Shown: piece by piece, positions 4,329 to 13,091 of the stretch
Position numbering within the stretch: the stretch's first letter is position 1
Layout: every line of letters begins with the position of its first letter
From: Saprospiraceae bacterium
GTDB lineage: Bacteria; Bacteroidota; Bacteroidia; Chitinophagales; Saprospiraceae
NCBI GenBank assembly: GCA_020627535.1
Contig: JAHDGU010000005.1
Span: 1 to 64,000, forward strand
Direction of reading: 5' to 3'
DNA length: 64,000 nt
The notes under the pieces: model-generated
What the model saw: the letters and a program-made list of their open reading frames with translations, nothing else
What the model was told of the DNA's origin: nothing
The model's database searches: none
Made by a program: the position numbers and the translations under genes

Positions 4329-6785
4329 CTTAAGACTGTAATAATCCAAAAAGTAGACCGCCTTTAGCGTGAATGTATTGAGTTGAGGTGATTGGAGCGT
4401 CCGATCAAGATTGTCAAAGTATCGGGGCAAGAGCTCATTTTGTGCCGTAGCAATAGCATCTTTCCATACGAAGATCAGGTCACTTCCCGGAGCAAAACGC
4501 CAAGTAAGGACCATATCAATGTTCAGCGCATTGAAGTTGATATCGTGTAACTGATTGCCATCCTCATCAGTACCATTGTACAGGATGTCTACCAGTTCTC
4601 CATTTTCACCGAGCTGGTAGACGTCAAGCACATCCACCTGATCCCATATATGGCGCAGTCGGAAGTTGATATTGAGATTTGGGTTTACGCTGTAGTCTAT
4701 AGTGAAGATATTCGAGACAGTAAGACGATCTCGTCGACTCATGTATGATCCACTAGGATCTAGTAAACTATAACCTATGCCCAGGCTGCTGATAGGAACA
4801 AACCCCACATCACGTTTATTCTTGCCGACTGCTGTGCGAAGCTCTACAATCATTCGATCCCATACGCGCAGTCTTGGCTGAAAGGAAAAGTCATAGCCAT
4901 GTCTCCCTTTTTCAAAAAATGTATAATGACTAAAGTCTATATCAATCGCAAAGTCTTTGCTGTAATTGGTAGAGAAAAATCCACCGTTTACGAGTAGACC
5001 TGGATTGGCCAAAAACAAAGAGAAATCTGAGGTGCGTGGCTCAAAATAATCATGAGTACCGAATGGCTCTGTGTACGTAAATCTTCCAAATCCGAGAAAA
5101 TCATTTGTACGATAAAATTGATTCTGGAATAAACTCAAATTAGAATACTGCCAATCACTGCGTAGTGTCTCATACTCAATGCCAAAATTGTATCGCGCAA
5201 AATTGAAATTCCCTTTCGGGTCAAAATTCCGGTAGGCGCCAAACCACTCTATCTCACGATAGTTTCTCAAGCGCTGAAACCCAAGATCATTAATTTCAAA
5301 TTCATTAGCTGTCTCTTCATAGCCAATATCAAAGACAAAGTTTCCACTCGTCTTGCCACCGGATAAGGCAAAGCGGTGACCCAGATCAGTCGTGCCGCTC
5401 CCATATAGCTGACTGATCGCACCAGAGCCCTGGAGTTGCCAAGTGATGGAGCTATCTTGTAGCCTAAACTCAGTCGCAGTCACATTGGCCTCAGGCGCAT
5501 CTCCCTTGCGCAGGACACTTGTGTTGATCAGAGATACGTAGCTATTGTTTTTCAGGTTTTGATCAAGGACAAAAACATTGTAATTCGTAAATGGATTGAT
5601 CACGACTTCTTTGGGCTCATCACCTCCGAGGATTTGCGCCACAGTCTTTTCAGATATCGCATTCAGCACTCCCACACCCAGTCCTTTTTCTGTCCTTCCA
5701 GTAAGCTTGGAGATATTGAGCAAGCGAGAGTTGCTCGGGACATTGGAGAGATATTGTCCCTCAGGGAGTTTTTCTTGAACCTCATTGAGCAAGGCAAGCT
5801 TGCCTCCGATTCTCCGGGTGAAAAATATATTGGCTCGATTAAATAGTTCTATACCCTCTTGAAAAAACTGCCGCTGTTCGTCAAACTGCACCTCAAAAGG
5901 TGATAAATTGAGTACCGCATTATCAGATCTTGCTTGACTAAAATCAGGGATCAGTGTCATATCCAGAGTGAATGCGTCATTGATACCATACTTGATGTCT
6001 GCACCACCCGTGATGGTAAATTCTGTCAAGTTTTTCGGATCCGCATTTTTGTCACTTAGCCAGCTGAAGTTTGTTGCGACAAAAGGGAAGAGTGTCAATC
6101 GGAGCGGAGACTCAATATCCTTGATTCCCGTCCATGTTCCCCACTGATTGATAAAGCCATTGACATTGGGATCGATATATGACCAGTGAGATACTTCACG
6201 GATACTCTCGATATTCCTCGCAAAATTGATCCCCCAGTCCTGCACTTCAGCTTCGGCAAATCTCACAGCATTATAAGGGATAAAGATCTCGACACTCCAG
6301 CCGTCGTCCCGGATGACAGACTTATTTTCCCACACGGCATTCCAGCCACTATCACCGTCATCACTACTGACACGTATATCATATTGCACTCCAGCGACAG
6401 ATGCACCGAAGATGTAGCCATTATTTCCAGCATTGTAGGTATCCAGAGAGATAGAGAACCAATCCGTATTTCTCACCTGATCGCGAGGTGTCATGCGTAC
6501 GATCAGACTATCAGGATCATCGTACATCATCGCATGGACATACACACCTTCGTCCGAGTACAAGACGCGGACTTCAGTGGGTTTAGAGCATGGGTCACCT
6601 GGATTGGGATTATTTTCTATGAAGTTGCTGAGTACTGCAGCATCTTGCCACGCAGGCTCATCAGCATGACCATCGATGTCAAATTTTGCATCAGTCTTTT
6701 GGGCGAAAGCCACGGGTCGATCCTGCTTTTGAGCGCACAGACTTATACAGAGCAGACTAGAGAGAATGAGGTAAAAGAGCTTCAC
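4305..6785 (-). CDS. DUF5916 outer-membrane protein with CBM9-like domain (paralog 1)
   Basis: 826 residues. A signal peptide (MKLFYLILSSLLCISLCAQ) is followed by a CBM9/DOMON-like domain at about residues 35-230 (IDGHADEPAW at the start, WNAVWENKS and a WSVEIFIPYNAVRF strand later). The rest is the DUF5916 beta-barrel region, with PDFSQARSDNAVLNLSPFE and EQRQFFQEGIELF as its hallmark, and an aromatic end typical of outer-membrane barrels. It probably sits in the outer membrane and binds or helps take up carbohydrate or another polymer; the substrate is unknown. A GTG at 6785 is the start, with a near-consensus box (GAACTTTG) 4 nt before it. A close paralog lies at 47789-50164. Confidence 0.85.
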   Translation of the reverse strand: MKLFYLILSSLLCISLCAQKQDRPVAFAQKTDAKFDIDGHADEPAWQDAAVLSNFIENNPNPGDPCSKPTEVRVLYSDEGVYVHAMMYDDPDSLIVRMTPRDQVRNTDWFSISLDTYNAGNNGYIFGASVAGVQYDIRVSSDDGDSGWNAVWENKSVIRDDGWSVEIFIPYNAVRFAEAEVQDWGINFARNIESIREVSHWSYIDPNVNGFINQWGTWTGIKDIESPLRLTLFPFVATNFSWLSDKNADPKNLTEFTITGGADIKYGINDAFTLDMTLIPDFSQARSDNAVLNLSPFEVQFDEQRQFFQEGIELFNRANIFFTRRIGGKLALLNEVQEKLPEGQYLSNVPSNSRLLNISKLTGRTEKGLGVGVLNAISEKTVAQILGGDEPKEVVINPFTNYNVFVLDQNLKNNSYVSLINTSVLRKGDAPEANVTATEFRLQDSSITWQLQGSGAISQLYGSGTTDLGHRFALSGGKTSGNFVFDIGYEETANEFEINDLGFQRLRNYREIEWFGAYRNFDPKGNFNFARYNFGIEYETLRSDWQYSNLSLFQNQFYRTNDFLGFGRFTYTEPFGTHDYFEPRTSDFSLFLANPGLLVNGGFFSTNYSKDFAIDIDFSHYTFFEKGRHGYDFSFQPRLRVWDRMIVELRTAVGKNKRDVGFVPISSLGIGYSLLDPSGSYMSRRDRLTVSNIFTIDYSVNPNLNINFRLRHIWDQVDVLDVYQLGENGELVDILYNGTDEDGNQLHDINFNALNIDMVLTWRFAPGSDLIFVWKDAIATAQNELLPRYFDNLDRTLQSPQLNTFTLKAVYFLDYYSLKKKDNSTS

Positions 6786-7291: not shown

Positions 7292-7422
7292 ATCTCCACT
7301 TATTTTTTACAAAGAACGCCGTCTATCCTGTTTCAGTGCCGAAAAGTCTTGCTTTTCAATGTTCATCTAGTCAGAATTGTAGATTTTTGCCCTCACATCA
7401 GACAAGTCCAAAGCAATACAAT

Positions 7423-8654: not shown

Positions 8655-9182
8655 ATGACACTGAGAGAATTCATCAACCATGTCTCTGACAATTCATGGA
8701 TGGCGATCGTCTACTTGGCGGCCATCCCACTGATCGCCCTATGGCTTGGCTGGATCGCCAAGGGCAAGGGCAATGACTCGCCTTGGTGCATGATGTACAG
8801 TGCCCTGATCTATGGTATTGCAGTGCCAGCCATTTTTGGTATATCCCTCACAGCCTACCTATTTCTGTTTGAGCGCAAGAGCATCTATGACATGGATCTC
8901 ATCATCCAAGTCCTACCTGTGCTATCGATGATCCTCACTATCTATATCATGAAGCGCAATGTCAAGATCGATCAGATCCCGGGATTCACTGGTATCGGAG
9001 GATTGATTCTCATCCTGTTCTCGCTCATGGCACTAGGATGGCTGCTTGACAGGACCAATATTTTTGCGATTAGCTTCATCCCTTTCGGATGGCTTATACT
9101 GGCATTGATCCTCTTCCCAGTCTTAATCTGGCTGGGTTTCCGGATGATGAATAGGTCTAAGAAAGAAAGTCCTACGATCTAG
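8655..9182 (+). CDS. Conserved multi-span membrane protein
   Basis: This 175-residue hydrophobic protein has about five predicted membrane helices: near residues 17-34, 48-70, 80-100, 112-130 and 137-160, with a short basic tail (MMNRSKKESPTI). It starts 8 nt after the odhB stop codon and so is probably in the same transcript. I recognise no functional motif. Its stop overlaps the stop of the convergent gene on the other strand (9179-9182). Confidence 0.7.
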   Translation: MTLREFINHVSDNSWMAIVYLAAIPLIALWLGWIAKGKGNDSPWCMMYSALIYGIAVPAIFGISLTAYLFLFERKSIYDMDLIIQVLPVLSMILTIYIMKRNVKIDQIPGFTGIGGLILILFSLMALGWLLDRTNIFAISFIPFGWLILALILFPVLIWLGFRMMNRSKKESPTI

Positions 9183-9625
9183 TCGACTTCTACCACGTCT
9201 ACGAGAGCATACATCAGGCGATTGACGTCCTCAGCATTGAGGACTAGGCGCCCCTTGATCGTGATAGGATCTGCTGTATACTTGATTGGTTCGAGGGCAG
9301 TGACCTCGATGACTGTCTCTGGTCCCGCTCCACCGCAGAAGAAACAGAGATTATAAGGAAAGGCGGAGAAGATGAACTCCGTATGACTTTTGTACCCTTC
9401 TGTCGGGATAATGTAGCCCTTCATCTCGATCTCTTGGCCTTCCAGAGCCTTTACCTCTTCACTAAAGACAGGCATATCGATCTTGAAGCCTAGGAGCTCA
9501 TTGTACTCCTTGGTATAAGTGATCTTGGCCAGCGTCTTCCATGAACTCGAGTTGATACCATCCTGTGCATGTCCGATGAGGAGGCTTCCGCCAAAAAGAA
9601 GGGCGATCGTCAGTAGCTTTTTCAT
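9179..9625 (-). CDS. Exported CFFCG protein, DUF3299-like (second of a tandem pair)
   Basis: 148 residues with a signal peptide (MKKLLTIALLFGGSLLIGHAQ). The core reads ALEGQEIEMKGYIIP, then FSAFPYNLCFFCGGAGPET and a V-E-V strand. This order (W-x-x-L near the start, a 'G-x-x-[IV]-x-x-x-G-[YF]-x-[IV]-P' strand, then a Cys-rich turn) resembles DUF3299 periplasmic proteins. The neighbouring gene encodes a protein with the same pattern, one nt upstream, so the pair arose by tandem duplication. It follows an ABC transporter whose permease has a histidine-rich loop, which suggests a periplasmic metal-handling role; this is inference. The DUF3299 assignment is from memory of the motif. Confidence 0.65.
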   Translation of the reverse strand: MKKLLTIALLFGGSLLIGHAQDGINSSSWKTLAKITYTKEYNELLGFKIDMPVFSEEVKALEGQEIEMKGYIIPTEGYKSHTEFIFSAFPYNLCFFCGGAGPETVIEVTALEPIKYTADPITIKGRLVLNAEDVNRLMYALVDVVEVD

Positions 9626-9626
9626 T

Positions 9627-10079
9627 TTAGTCTTTTCTCTTGATCACTTGCGCATATCTCAGTGTATAGATAGGGCTGGTGACAGTATTATCATTGAGCT
9701 CGAGGATGCCTCGTAGCCAGATTTTGTCTTCGGTATACTTGAGCTTGTCTCCCTCTTCCATGTAGACTTCCATGGCAGTCTCTGGACCTGCTTTCCCACA
9801 GAAGAAGCACATGTTATATGGGAGCGCGCTAAACATGAAGTAGCTTTGCTCGATCTTTCCTTTGAGAGGGATGATATAGCCTTGGACGTCGATCTCCTGT
9901 CCTTCTAGAGCCGTGATCCAAGGGCCAAATTTGGGCACATCAATATGGATCCCCATCTCCTCACTGTATACCTGCTCAAAATCCACCGTCTGCAAGACAC
10001 GCCAAGTGGACTCTTGAGCCTGCAGGAAAAGGACTGAGAGCAAAATAATCAAGGACGTTATGAGAGCCTTCATGATCAT
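9627..10079 (-). CDS. Exported CFFCG protein, DUF3299-like (first of a tandem pair)
   Basis: 150 residues; signal peptide MIMKALITSLIILLSVLFLQAQ. It shares with the next gene the blocks ALEGQEI, GYIIPLKG / GYIIPTEG, PYN[LM]CFFCG and AGPET, plus a final strand about 30 residues later. The two Cys in CFFCG could bind a metal or form a disulfide. It sits 99 nt behind the permease gene in the same direction and 1 nt before its paralog. Retention of both copies with the same Cys motif but otherwise marked divergence argues for two distinct roles. An alternative is a lipid- or haem-related periplasmic chaperone. Confidence 0.65.
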   Translation of the reverse strand: MIMKALITSLIILLSVLFLQAQESTWRVLQTVDFEQVYSEEMGIHIDVPKFGPWITALEGQEIDVQGYIIPLKGKIEQSYFMFSALPYNMCFFCGKAGPETAMEVYMEEGDKLKYTEDKIWLRGILELNDNTVTSPIYTLRYAQVIKRKD

Positions 10080-10178
10080 GCGAAATTATACTTTCTTCAC
10101 TCGTACCAACACGTAGTCGTCGTCATTCATATCCCAGCAGACGGTTTTTTAACCCTGTTTTAACCAGTAAGATCACGC

Positions 10179-11549
10179 CTATCCCTCACTCAAAGTAGAG
10201 TGGATGTCCGTCTTATAAGCCTGCCATGCAGGAATGACACTGGCGACCAAGCCGATCAACAAGGCAATCAAACCCATCCAAGCTTCTGCCGGTAGAAATT
10301 CCCAAGCACTCAAGCTATAGCGAAACTGCTCGCTGATCCTGGAGGCGAATGCCCAAGTACCGATGTGCGCCAGAAGCAGGCCGATGACAAATCCGAGAGC
10401 TGCTACCAAGAGACCTTCGAGTACGATCAACAAGAATAATCGACTCCGTCCTGCACCCATGACTCTCATCAGGGAAAGCTCATATTTTCGGTCCTTGAGG
10501 CTACTGAGCAGAGAGAAGAAGATGCTGAGGCCACTGACGATCGCTATGAGTATGGCAATAGCCCTCAATGCTTCTGTGCCTGATCCCATCATAGAGTACA
10601 CTCGTGAAATCTCGTAGGGAGGTGAAGCGGCCTGCATGTCAGTGTTTTCATTGATGGAGCGCGGCATGCTCATCGTCTGGAAATTGTTGTTCTTATATCT
10701 GATGAGCAGGGCAGTGATTTCCTCTTCAGGGTGATCTAAGAGCTGCGCATTGTTCACAGTTCCAAAATCGCTCGCATCTACTTCTACAGTGGTGTGTACA
10801 TGCGCACCATGATCATGATCATGGTGATCGTGTCCTGAGTGATCATGTCCTGAGTGATCATGATCTTCATGAGCCATACTATCACTGGCATGAGCCTCAG
10901 CTTCATGGTCATCGTCATGGTCATGATCATGGACACTCCAGACGCTGCTTGTATTTGTCAGGATTACTTGGTCTAGCACAGAGCCAGTTCCCTTCATGAT
11001 GCCCACCACGGTAAATGGCGTATGATGATCGTGTACCAGATCGGAGTTGTCGTCAAAGCCATGACTGCTCATAAACTGGTCACCTACATGGATGTGAAGC
11101 TTTTTGGCGACAGCCGCTCCGACGACGACCTCAAGATCCTCAGTCCACCAACGACCTTGAGCAAGCTCTCCGTCATACAGACGAGCATACTCGTGGGTGG
11201 TCCCGATGATGCGATAGGTCTTGTAACTATCTCCGATCGATGTAGGCACGGCCATTTCGATGAGAGGATGCTTGGGATTGAGAAATGGTGACACCTCTTT
11301 GATCGTGACATTTCCGGTAGGTGCATCGACATGATACATATTGCATAGGATCATCTGCATGGGGCTTCCTTTTGCCCCAATCACCAAGTCAATATCCGCC
11401 AGATTTCGATCAAAATTTTTGGTGAGCTGGTTGTTGACGAGCAGCAGTACCGTGATGAGCCCTATCCCAAGAGAAAACAAGATCAGACTCAAGAGTGCCG
11501 AGAGTGGTCTAGCCCACAGATTTTTCCATGCCAGTCGGATCCAACTCAT
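10179..11549 (-). CDS. FtsX/LolE-type ABC permease with histidine-rich periplasmic loop
   Basis: This 456-residue protein has a membrane helix at about 20-40, a large periplasmic domain (about 41-325) and three C-terminal helices (about 330-350, 375-400 and 420-445) around the conserved SSLKDRKYELSLMRVMGAG segment of FtsX-family permeases. What stands out is residues 207-252, where 17 His alternate with Asp, Gly and Ser (HDHDHDDDHE, GHDHSGHDHHDHDHG). Such loops bind Zn, Ni or Co in other proteins. Further HDHH residues occur near 173. The gene overlaps the ATPase gene by 4 nt, so they form one transporter. The family moves lipoproteins or drives periplasmic enzymes rather than importing ions, so a metal-sensing or metal-loading export role is possible. 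Confidence 0.85.
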   Translation of the reverse strand: MSWIRLAWKNLWARPLSALLSLILFSLGIGLITVLLLVNNQLTKNFDRNLADIDLVIGAKGSPMQMILCNMYHVDAPTGNVTIKEVSPFLNPKHPLIEMAVPTSIGDSYKTYRIIGTTHEYARLYDGELAQGRWWTEDLEVVVGAAVAKKLHIHVGDQFMSSHGFDDNSDLVHDHHTPFTVVGIMKGTGSVLDQVILTNTSSVWSVHDHDHDDDHEAEAHASDSMAHEDHDHSGHDHSGHDHHDHDHGAHVHTTVEVDASDFGTVNNAQLLDHPEEEITALLIRYKNNNFQTMSMPRSINENTDMQAASPPYEISRVYSMMGSGTEALRAIAILIAIVSGLSIFFSLLSSLKDRKYELSLMRVMGAGRSRLFLLIVLEGLLVAALGFVIGLLLAHIGTWAFASRISEQFRYSLSAWEFLPAEAWMGLIALLIGLVASVIPAWQAYKTDIHSTLSEG

Positions 11550-12181
11550 GAGTTCAATCTGATTTGATGAGAAAATCTGCTCGTGAGTCGATTGTCATGT
11601 GTGACGACGATCAGGCTTGCGCCAATCTTCTCTGCTTCATTGCTGATGAGATTGATGACTGCCTCACAATTGGCATCATCCAGAGCCGATGTTGGCTCAT
11701 CCGCCAAGATGAGTTTTGGTCTATGGATCAAGCCTCGAATGATTGAGACTCTTTGTTTCTCACCTTGCGAGAGCTGATGCATCTTGCGAGCCTTTTTGGC
11801 CGAAAGGCCTACAAGATCAAGCATCTGATCGATCAAGTCATCATCTTCTGAGACGCCGGCTAGCTTCTGGGCCAAAGAGAGATTTTCGCCCACCGTAAGC
11901 GCTCGAACAAAATGAGGTACCTGAAAAATCAATCCGATATGTCGACCACGAAAACTGTCGAGCTGTGTCTCACTCATACCGTACATATCTGTCCCACCTA
12001 GACGGACACTGCCAGATTGAGGCCTCAGGAGACCAGCCATGAGATGCAGCAGTGTCGTTTTTCCAGATCCTGACTGTCCAAGCAACAAGGCTTGTTGCCC
12101 AGCCTCCAAGGCGATGTCAGGAAATCTCAGTGCCGATCCACCTGCATAAGAAAACTGTATGTCGCTAGTGCTTAGATTCAT
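11546..12181 (-). CDS. LolD/MacB-type ABC ATPase
   Basis: 211 residues. Walker A is GQSGSGKTTL near residues 34-43, the signature is LSQGEKQRVSI near 137, Walker B is LILADEPTSALD near 157, and the switch His is VVTHD near 194. This is the MacB/LolD branch that pairs with FtsX-type permeases, and the partner gene overlaps it by 4 nt. It would power the permease from the cytoplasmic side. It begins 4 nt after the stop codon of the ROK kinase gene, so all share one transcript. Confidence 0.9.
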   Translation of the reverse strand: MNLSTSDIQFSYAGGSALRFPDIALEAGQQALLLGQSGSGKTTLLHLMAGLLRPQSGSVRLGGTDMYGMSETQLDSFRGRHIGLIFQVPHFVRALTVGENLSLAQKLAGVSEDDDLIDQMLDLVGLSAKKARKMHQLSQGEKQRVSIIRGLIHRPKLILADEPTSALDDANCEAVINLISNEAEKIGASLIVVTHDNRLTSRFSHQIRLNS

Positions 12182-12185
12182 TCAC

Positions 12186-13091
12186 TTAGAGGAGAGCAGC
12201 TCCGATGACACCGGCACTATCGCCCAACTTTGGTCTTAAAAACGGTGTGTGAAGTTCATTGTTGAACAAATATGGCACAACCTGAGCGACTCCTTCGTCA
12301 TAAAGTGCGTCAACATTGCTGACACCACCACCTAGAACGATGGCCCCGGGATCAATTACATTAATCAACCTAGCGACTCCTTCACCAAAGTAACGGAACA
12401 AGCGCTGCATAGTCTTTTCGGCAGCAGGGTCGAAGGTTCTGTCCTTGACGATGTCCCGCAAGGCTTTCTTCTGGCCGGTTTGCTCCTTGTAGTAGCGCTC
12501 GAGCGAGGGGCCAGAAATCACTGTCTCTGTGCAGCCAGCTTTGCCGCAATAGCATGGATGACCATCTGGCTCAAGGACATTGTGACCCCATTCTCCTCCG
12601 ATACCATGCGTGCCGTTGATGACCTTGTCGCCCACGACAAGTCCACCTCCGACGCCAGTGCCCATGATGATGCCAAAGACTACATCGACAGGCGTATCCA
12701 GCTCTGTGACTGCCCCAAGTTGGGCTTCGGCAAGCGCAAAACAGTTGGCGTCATTGGCCATGCGTAGCTCTAGCTGTAGCTTGTCTCTCAGATCAGCAAA
12801 GAGCGGCTTTCCTAGGAGACACTGGGTATTGCTATTCTTCAAGAGACCGGTGGATGGCTCAGTAGCTCCCGGCGTTCCAATGCCGATTTTGCTAGGTTGG
12901 AGACCTGTTTCTTTTTTGAGGATATTGACAAGCTTGTCAATCTGAGCGATGATGTGCTCATAGCCATGCTCTTGCTCCGTGGGCACTCTCGTCCTACAGA
13001 GGATGTCAATCTCATTGCCTTGTTTTTCAAAAACGACACCTTCGATCTTGGTTCCTCCTAGATCTATACCCCAATGGATGTTATCCTTCAT
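12186..13091 (-). CDS. ROK family sugar kinase
   Basis: 301 residues with the ROK fold. The phosphate-binding WGIDLGGTKIEG is at 7-18, the catalytic Asp in MANDANCFALAE near 112, GIIMGTGVGGG near 140, and the zinc-binding block H-x-CYCGKAGCTE near 178-190. A second ROK pattern, VIDPGAIVLGGGVSN, is near 264. These enzymes phosphorylate glucose, fructose or N-acetyl sugars in the cytoplasm; specificity cannot be read from the sequence. It is the first gene of the leftward ABC/CFFCG operon. A TACATTTG box lies 23 nt upstream of the start. Confidence 0.9.
   Translation of the reverse strand: MKDNIHWGIDLGGTKIEGVVFEKQGNEIDILCRTRVPTEQEHGYEHIIAQIDKLVNILKKETGLQPSKIGIGTPGATEPSTGLLKNSNTQCLLGKPLFADLRDKLQLELRMANDANCFALAEAQLGAVTELDTPVDVVFGIIMGTGVGGGLVVGDKVINGTHGIGGEWGHNVLEPDGHPCYCGKAGCTETVISGPSLERYYKEQTGQKKALRDIVKDRTFDPAAEKTMQRLFRYFGEGVARLINVIDPGAIVLGGGVSNVDALYDEGVAQVVPYLFNNELHTPFLRPKLGDSAGVIGAALL

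Follow-up and report, generated by a model that had tools for sequence, protein, structure and literature searches.

What does an ATP-binding cassette (ABC) permease do with 17 histidines crowded into one periplasmic loop, and what ties it to the two small exported proteins encoded behind it? The question is raised by a gene module in the first 64,000 nucleotides of contig JAHDGU010000005.1 of a Saprospiraceae bacterium (GenBank assembly GCA_020627535.1), a stretch that we refer to as the window. Here, genes for a separate ATP-binding subunit and permease are followed by two genes for exported proteins with a CFFCG motif, called D2 and D1 in the order of transcription. An earlier note, made from the sequence alone, had likened this module to the zinc-regulated zrg genes of Vibrio. 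We find homology of the permease to ZrgB and of the small proteins to ZrgE, and on balance we favor reading the locus as a Bacteroidota branch of the Zrg kind that lacks ZrgA, composed of a ZrgC-like ATPase, a ZrgB-like permease and ZrgE-like DUF3299 partners, for which we propose a metal-handling mechanism. The module is probably linked to zinc, while what we say below on the metal it handles, the direction in which this moves and what the CFFCG proteins do is inferred.

The permease and its exported partners

The permease shows the four-helix topology of the FtsX/MacB type, with one transmembrane helix, a large periplasmic domain and three further helices, and it matches Pfam FtsX (E 5e-17) and MacB_PCD (E 1e-13). 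Its AlphaFold2 model is most like MacB, LolE and HrtB, in agreement with the FtsX/LolE-type fold proposed in the earlier note. In a phylogenetic tree that also took in LolC, LolE, MacB and four further FtsX permeases encoded in this genome, the Bacteroidota permeases and four proteobacterial Zrg permeases, the latter from plasmid-borne zrg clusters, join as two sister groups with a support of 99/96, to the exclusion of LolC/E, MacB and the genome's own other FtsX permeases. Searching the genome with a PA4065-type query placed the window permease at the top (94.9+60.2 bits, with the next protein at 36.4), and the two are reciprocal best hits. Likewise, the best plasmid matches of the window permease, obtained blind to neighboring genes, include permeases adjoining DUF3299 genes in Phaeobacter and Catenovulum. 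The curated LolC/E cut-off is not reached (59 vs 362 bits), nor is this a MacB-type ATPase-permease fusion: the ATPase and permease genes are separate, and no adaptor gene was seen in the neighborhood.

D1 and D2 both start with a hydrophobic, signal-like N-terminus and share the motifs ALEGQEI, GYIIP and PYN[LM]CFFCG[GK]AGPET, just as the earlier note had read them. Its remark that they look like DUF3299 was right as well, albeit at the edge of detection. Aligning a profile of 20 Bacteroidota D relatives with five annotated DUF3299 proteins by hhalign gave a clear match (96.3%, E 1.5e-9). The AlphaFold2 model of D1, with a predicted local distance difference test score (pLDDT) of 87.7, is an oligonucleotide/oligosaccharide-binding fold (OB-fold), and its sole PDB match under E 0.001 in Foldseek was 4HSP, the DUF3299 protein PA4066 of P. 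aeruginosa, with OB-fold proteins coming next; phmmer against PDB found 4HSP at E 0.24 only. Based on the profile-profile and fold comparisons, D1 and D2 are remote DUF3299 homologues. In the corresponding loop, C-x-H is invariant among the annotated DUF3299 proteins, and the Bacteroidota D family carries a CxxC there that is invariant across the 20-member alignment. The two proteins lie on opposite sides of a branch with a support of 99/95, D2 forming a separate paralogue clade and D1 being the better conserved of the two, so the duplication pointed out in the earlier note is old within the family.

Members of the D family were also encountered in other surroundings. Three genomes encode additional CFFCG-type proteins next to the L20/IF-3 ribosomal gene cluster, and at one locus (L057) a D-family gene adjoins genes for a MacA/HlyD-like adaptor and an ABC ATPase, not the usual permease.

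Within the family, the permease was in view at 21 of 80 D1 loci, many of them on truncated contigs; because linkage by itself was judged too weak here, we used phyletic co-occurrence. In a sample of 148 Bacteroidota genomes covering the whole phylum, the D family was present in 26 and the permease family in the same 26, with zero discordance, and among 101 relatives 62 have both families, 36 have neither and 3 have one only. The association is not merely one of linkage, since the two genes are neighbors in 21 genomes and apart in the other five. The genomes are related and hence do not represent independent events, yet families such as f1 and f25 show presence alternating with absence. Of the genomes that bear a name, the closest are from Saprospiraceae, for example, Phaeodactylibacter, Lewinella, Neolewinella and Portibacter. 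Thus, the neighborhood does recur in other genomes, and the comparison with Zrg drawn in the earlier note is borne out by this recurrence, the permease tree and the remote DUF3299 homology.

ZrgA is a zinc-binding protein that is essential in Vibrio. Its family (PF10986, DUF2796) scored over the cut-off in 0 of 31 module-bearing Bacteroidota genomes, including that of the window; one of these showed a sub-threshold match of 20 residues, and three plasmid records served as positive controls in which ZrgA was detected. A separate observation comes from a Catenovulum plasmid (L195) that encodes MerC, DUF3299, an ATPase and a Zrg-type permease with no ZrgA on that replicon, so that the lack of ZrgA may extend beyond Bacteroidota. 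At about position 1846-1864, this locus also carries a perfect palindrome, AATGTTATATTATAACATT, resembling the Zur site of V. parahaemolyticus.

Histidines and zinc-gene context

A direct count confirmed that 17 of the 29 permease histidines fall within residues 207-252, a density not approached in 20,000 shuffles of the protein (at most 12 in any 46-residue window). Residues 210-258 have a pLDDT under 50 in the AlphaFold2 model and are predicted to be disordered. Over 50 permease loci, the length of this loop is variable and its His density spans 3 to 28 per 46 residues, which makes the loop look accessory. Three periplasmic histidines behave differently: H163, H173 and H207 are the only ones invariant in 21/21 Bacteroidota and 4/4 Zrg permeases (25/25, two phyla), and they are absent from the aligned LolC, LolE, MacB and own-genome paralogues. 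Judged by this alignment, the triad is a better signature than the loop. A loop length that varies freely down to zero among close relatives had been named in the earlier note as speaking against its own proposal; the loop does vary widely, but the triad is kept throughout.

The earlier note further described the His-rich part as fused into the permease. While the loop indeed lies in the permease, "fused" is too strong a word because the loop contains no ZrgA domain and is a length-variable insertion after H207, an invariant His shared with ZrgB-type permeases; of H207 and the loop, those proteobacterial Zrg permeases that we examined possess only H207. In Proteobacteria, the His-rich segment sits in ZrgA, where it is variable and dispensable (PMC9820375). 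An interpretation of the loop as a fused ZrgA was rejected, given the lack of a PF10986 match and the free loop length.

With respect to zinc, the module operons of relatives include genes for a COG0523 GTPase, DUF1826, MerC, a Fur-family regulator and TonB receptors (Pfam; loci L093, L094 and L101), and Zur-regulated COG0523/DUF1826 clusters are already known (PMC2770081). The upstream regions of these operons have a palindrome in common, TGCAACAnTGTTGCA, illustrative examples being the gene orders Fur//COG0523-ATPase-permease-D-DUF1826-TonB receptor (L094) and MerC-COG0523-ATPase-permease-D (L093). It is also found upstream of MerC-ATPase-permease (L073) and DUF4625-ATPase-permease (L077), whose permeases belong to the clade of the window permease. 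In 61 genomes of the family, the palindrome has 49 exact sites, compared with 0 for a reversed control. Among 44 site clusters that were inspected, 29 precede at least one gene for a TonB receptor, MerC, COG0523, Fur-family protein, DUF1826, ATPase-permease or D protein, with operon calls that are automatic and approximate and reference families chosen from loci found earlier. Focusing on the 50 permease loci, five (L073 and L077 among them) have the palindrome within 3.5 kb upstream, where 0.05 would be expected.

The window's own genome has three Fur-family genes. On its contig C15 (L218, 132000-145000), two candidate Zur boxes at locus positions 7379 and 7417, 38 bp apart, precede a MerC-COG0523 operon, which is likely this genome's zinc-starvation operon. 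Two more lie at about 5272-5315 of a locus on contig C16 (L227, 84500-95500), between a TonB receptor gene and the gene of a 609-amino-acid secreted protein that ends in a Por secretion tail. What looks like a metal-resistance block on contig C8 (L216, 188000-200000) consists of a Fur-family gene followed by genes for a His-rich 106-amino-acid protein and a CzcA/CusA-like efflux pump. In addition, genes for DUF4625-type lipoproteins, possible surface zinc-binding partners, stand beside TonB receptor genes near the palindrome at five loci, including L077.

Gene order at the locus

The genes of the module are transcribed in the order ROK-type kinase, ATPase, permease, D2 and D1 (Table 1). Because the ATPase gene starts only 4 bp past the ROK gene, we consider it probable that ROK kinase, ATPase and permease share a transcript. 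The ROK gene also precedes the ATPase gene in six relatives, and the order ROK-ATPase-permease was seen again in several. A gap of 99 bp separates the permease gene from the D2-D1 pair. Compared with NCBIfam, the ATPase matches the DevA, LolD and FtsE models under their cut-offs. At the other end, a gene for a 175-amino-acid membrane protein to which no family was assigned (8655-9182) is convergent with D1; it is found close to D1 in eight or more relatives, where it is sometimes accompanied by a dihydrolipoamide acyltransferase gene.

Table 1. Features of the module, with positions counted from the first nucleotide of the window
Feature	Positions	Strand	Evidence or remark
ROK-family kinase gene	12186-13091	minus	4 bp upstream of ATPase; linkage recurring in relatives
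ATP-binding subunit, LolD/FtsE/DevA-like, 211 amino acids	11546-12181	minus	ABC_tran E 3.6e-32
FtsX/MacB-type permease, Zrg clade, 456 amino acids	10179-11549	minus	Pfam, tree, reciprocal best hit, fold
H163 codon, first invariant periplasmic His (HG motif)	11061-11063	minus	Alignment
H173 codon, second invariant periplasmic His	11031-11033	minus	Alignment
H207 codon, third invariant His, start of His loop	10929-10931	minus	Alignment
His/Asp-rich loop, permease residues 207-252, 17 His	10794-10931	minus	Count, shuffles, pLDDT
D2, exported DUF3299-like protein, 150 amino acids	9627-10079	minus	PF11736 21.1 bits; D2 clade 99/95
CFFC motif of D2 (C91, C94)	9798-9809	minus	CxxC invariant in alignment
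D1, exported DUF3299-like protein, 148 amino acids, OB-fold model	9179-9625	minus	PF11736 19.2 bits; AlphaFold2; Foldseek
CFFC motif of D1 (C94, C97)	9335-9346	minus	Where DUF3299 has CxH (C108, H110 of PA4066-type protein)

Proposed mechanism, alternatives and known systems

How might the module work? We propose that the disordered His/Asp loop on the periplasmic domain would gather zinc or a similar metal locally, a job that presumably falls to ZrgA in Vibrio. The metal would then be handed to, or sensed at, a site of the periplasmic domain including H163, H173 and H207, which are presumed to bind metal and to lie close together. ATP hydrolysis by the cytosolic subunits would open and close the periplasmic domains, as in MacB and LolCDE (type VII ABC), and this movement could hand on the metal together with the exported OB-fold proteins D1 and D2, as their fold and co-occurrence suggest, with their CxxC as a candidate ligand or redox pair. 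We presume that zinc is the metal and that the window copy would work in the same manner despite its missing box. A generalization, which we regard as possible if rather doubtful, is that Zrg-type ABC systems at large are ATP-driven machines for periplasmic metal hand-over, not zinc membrane transporters: the three-His site would receive metal, in Proteobacteria from ZrgA and in Bacteroidota from a His loop in cis, and pass it to or from an obligate DUF3299 partner via CxH or CxxC.

Several points weigh against our reading of the locus as a ZrgA-less Zrg system. The earlier note had suggested a Bacteroidota system for zinc or another metal, and zinc-gene context and palindrome do support a zinc link in relatives, but no palindrome site occurs near the module or elsewhere in the window, so that zinc control of this particular copy is conjectural; the palindrome itself is a candidate Zur box, to which binding of Zur is presumed. 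D1 and D2 both score slightly under the Pfam cut-off for DUF3299 of 22 bits (19.2 and 21.1 bits, respectively), and the His loop is down to a few histidines in some relatives. In the literature searched, we found no data on expression, binding or transport for members from Bacteroidota, and for the homologous PA4063-PA4066 of P. aeruginosa the reported activity is export of a cobalt-pyochelin complex, not zinc handling (PMC11481552).

This last point leads to an alternative that we consider unlikely, namely, that the module is an exporter of the MacB type for a metallophore or a complex of metal and chelator, which has been proposed for PA4064/PA4065; the metal-related parts would then serve export of bound metal and not acquisition. 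The window permease falls in the PA4065 clade, its model has the MacB fold, and cobalt rose in P. aeruginosa upon deletion of PA4065 (PMC11481552); yet gene list and Pfam search of the neighborhood revealed no MacA-like adaptor, outer-membrane channel or metallophore genes in the cluster, and what accompanies the module in relatives are genes of the zinc-starvation uptake type. A true importer that carries zinc through the inner membrane to the cytoplasm, which is how ZrgABC is usually annotated, strikes us as improbable to much the same degree or a touch more, even though Vibrio depends on zrg, along with znu, to grow when zinc is limiting (PMC9820375). The zinc-starvation gene context in relatives would fit import as well. 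However, the solute-binding protein ZrgA is missing, and, judging by what is established for type VII ABC proteins, MacB/LolE-type permeases have no known route for metal through the membrane.

Two further explanations fare worse. The weak matches to LolD, LolCE and FtsE models, combined with the wide variation in loop length, could be taken to mean a LolE- or FtsEX-like mover of lipoproteins or signaler to envelope enzymes, with the His loop as an incidental low-complexity insertion; we find this quite improbable in view of a LolCE score far under its cut-off, a tree that excludes LolC/E, the invariant His triad and the zinc-gene context. Lastly, His-rich loops occur in efflux proteins, and MacB relatives are exporters, which might suggest a metal-efflux or detoxification device that answers metal excess. 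COG0523, DUF1826 and TonB receptors in the operons of relatives are instead typical of zinc starvation (PMC2770081 for Zur-regulated COG0523/DUF1826 clusters), and we give efflux very little credence.

Bacteria such as Vibrio grow without zinc with the help of Zrg systems, on which published work is split between zinc import and export of a metal chelator. A natural version that lacks ZrgA and always keeps a DUF3299-like partner points to the core parts, singles out three histidines and marks the small partner as a component and not a bystander. In the literature searched, itself limited, we came upon no earlier work that describes a Zrg system from Bacteroidota or the palindrome TGCAACAnTGTTGCA, and a text search for the palindrome together with Zur returned unrelated papers only.

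Among known systems, LolCDE and MacB (type VII ABC) share permease topology and fold with the module but form a separate clade and lack H163, H173 and H207; in MacB, moreover, the ATPase is fused to the permease, which works with MacA and TolC. PA4063-PA4066 of P. aeruginosa (PMC11481552; PDB 4HSP) is alike in permease clade, DUF3299 fold and the order ATPase-permease-DUF3299 (L193), and differs by its ZrgA-type PA4063, a permease without His loop and the proposed cobalt-pyochelin export. As for ZrgABCDE of V. cholerae and V. parahaemolyticus (PMC9820375, PMC9817125), we do not file the module under this name because ZrgA (PF10986) and the operator were both tested here and neither was found. 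The window copy has no candidate Zur box, its His-rich segment is in the permease, and its DUF3299-like proteins, of which there are two, carry CFFC in place of CxH. Nonetheless, both have separate genes for the ATPase and a MacB-like permease, a periplasmic DUF3299 protein, a zinc-starvation context (here in relatives) and a His-rich disordered segment somewhere in the system, and the variant probably works like ZrgABCDE.

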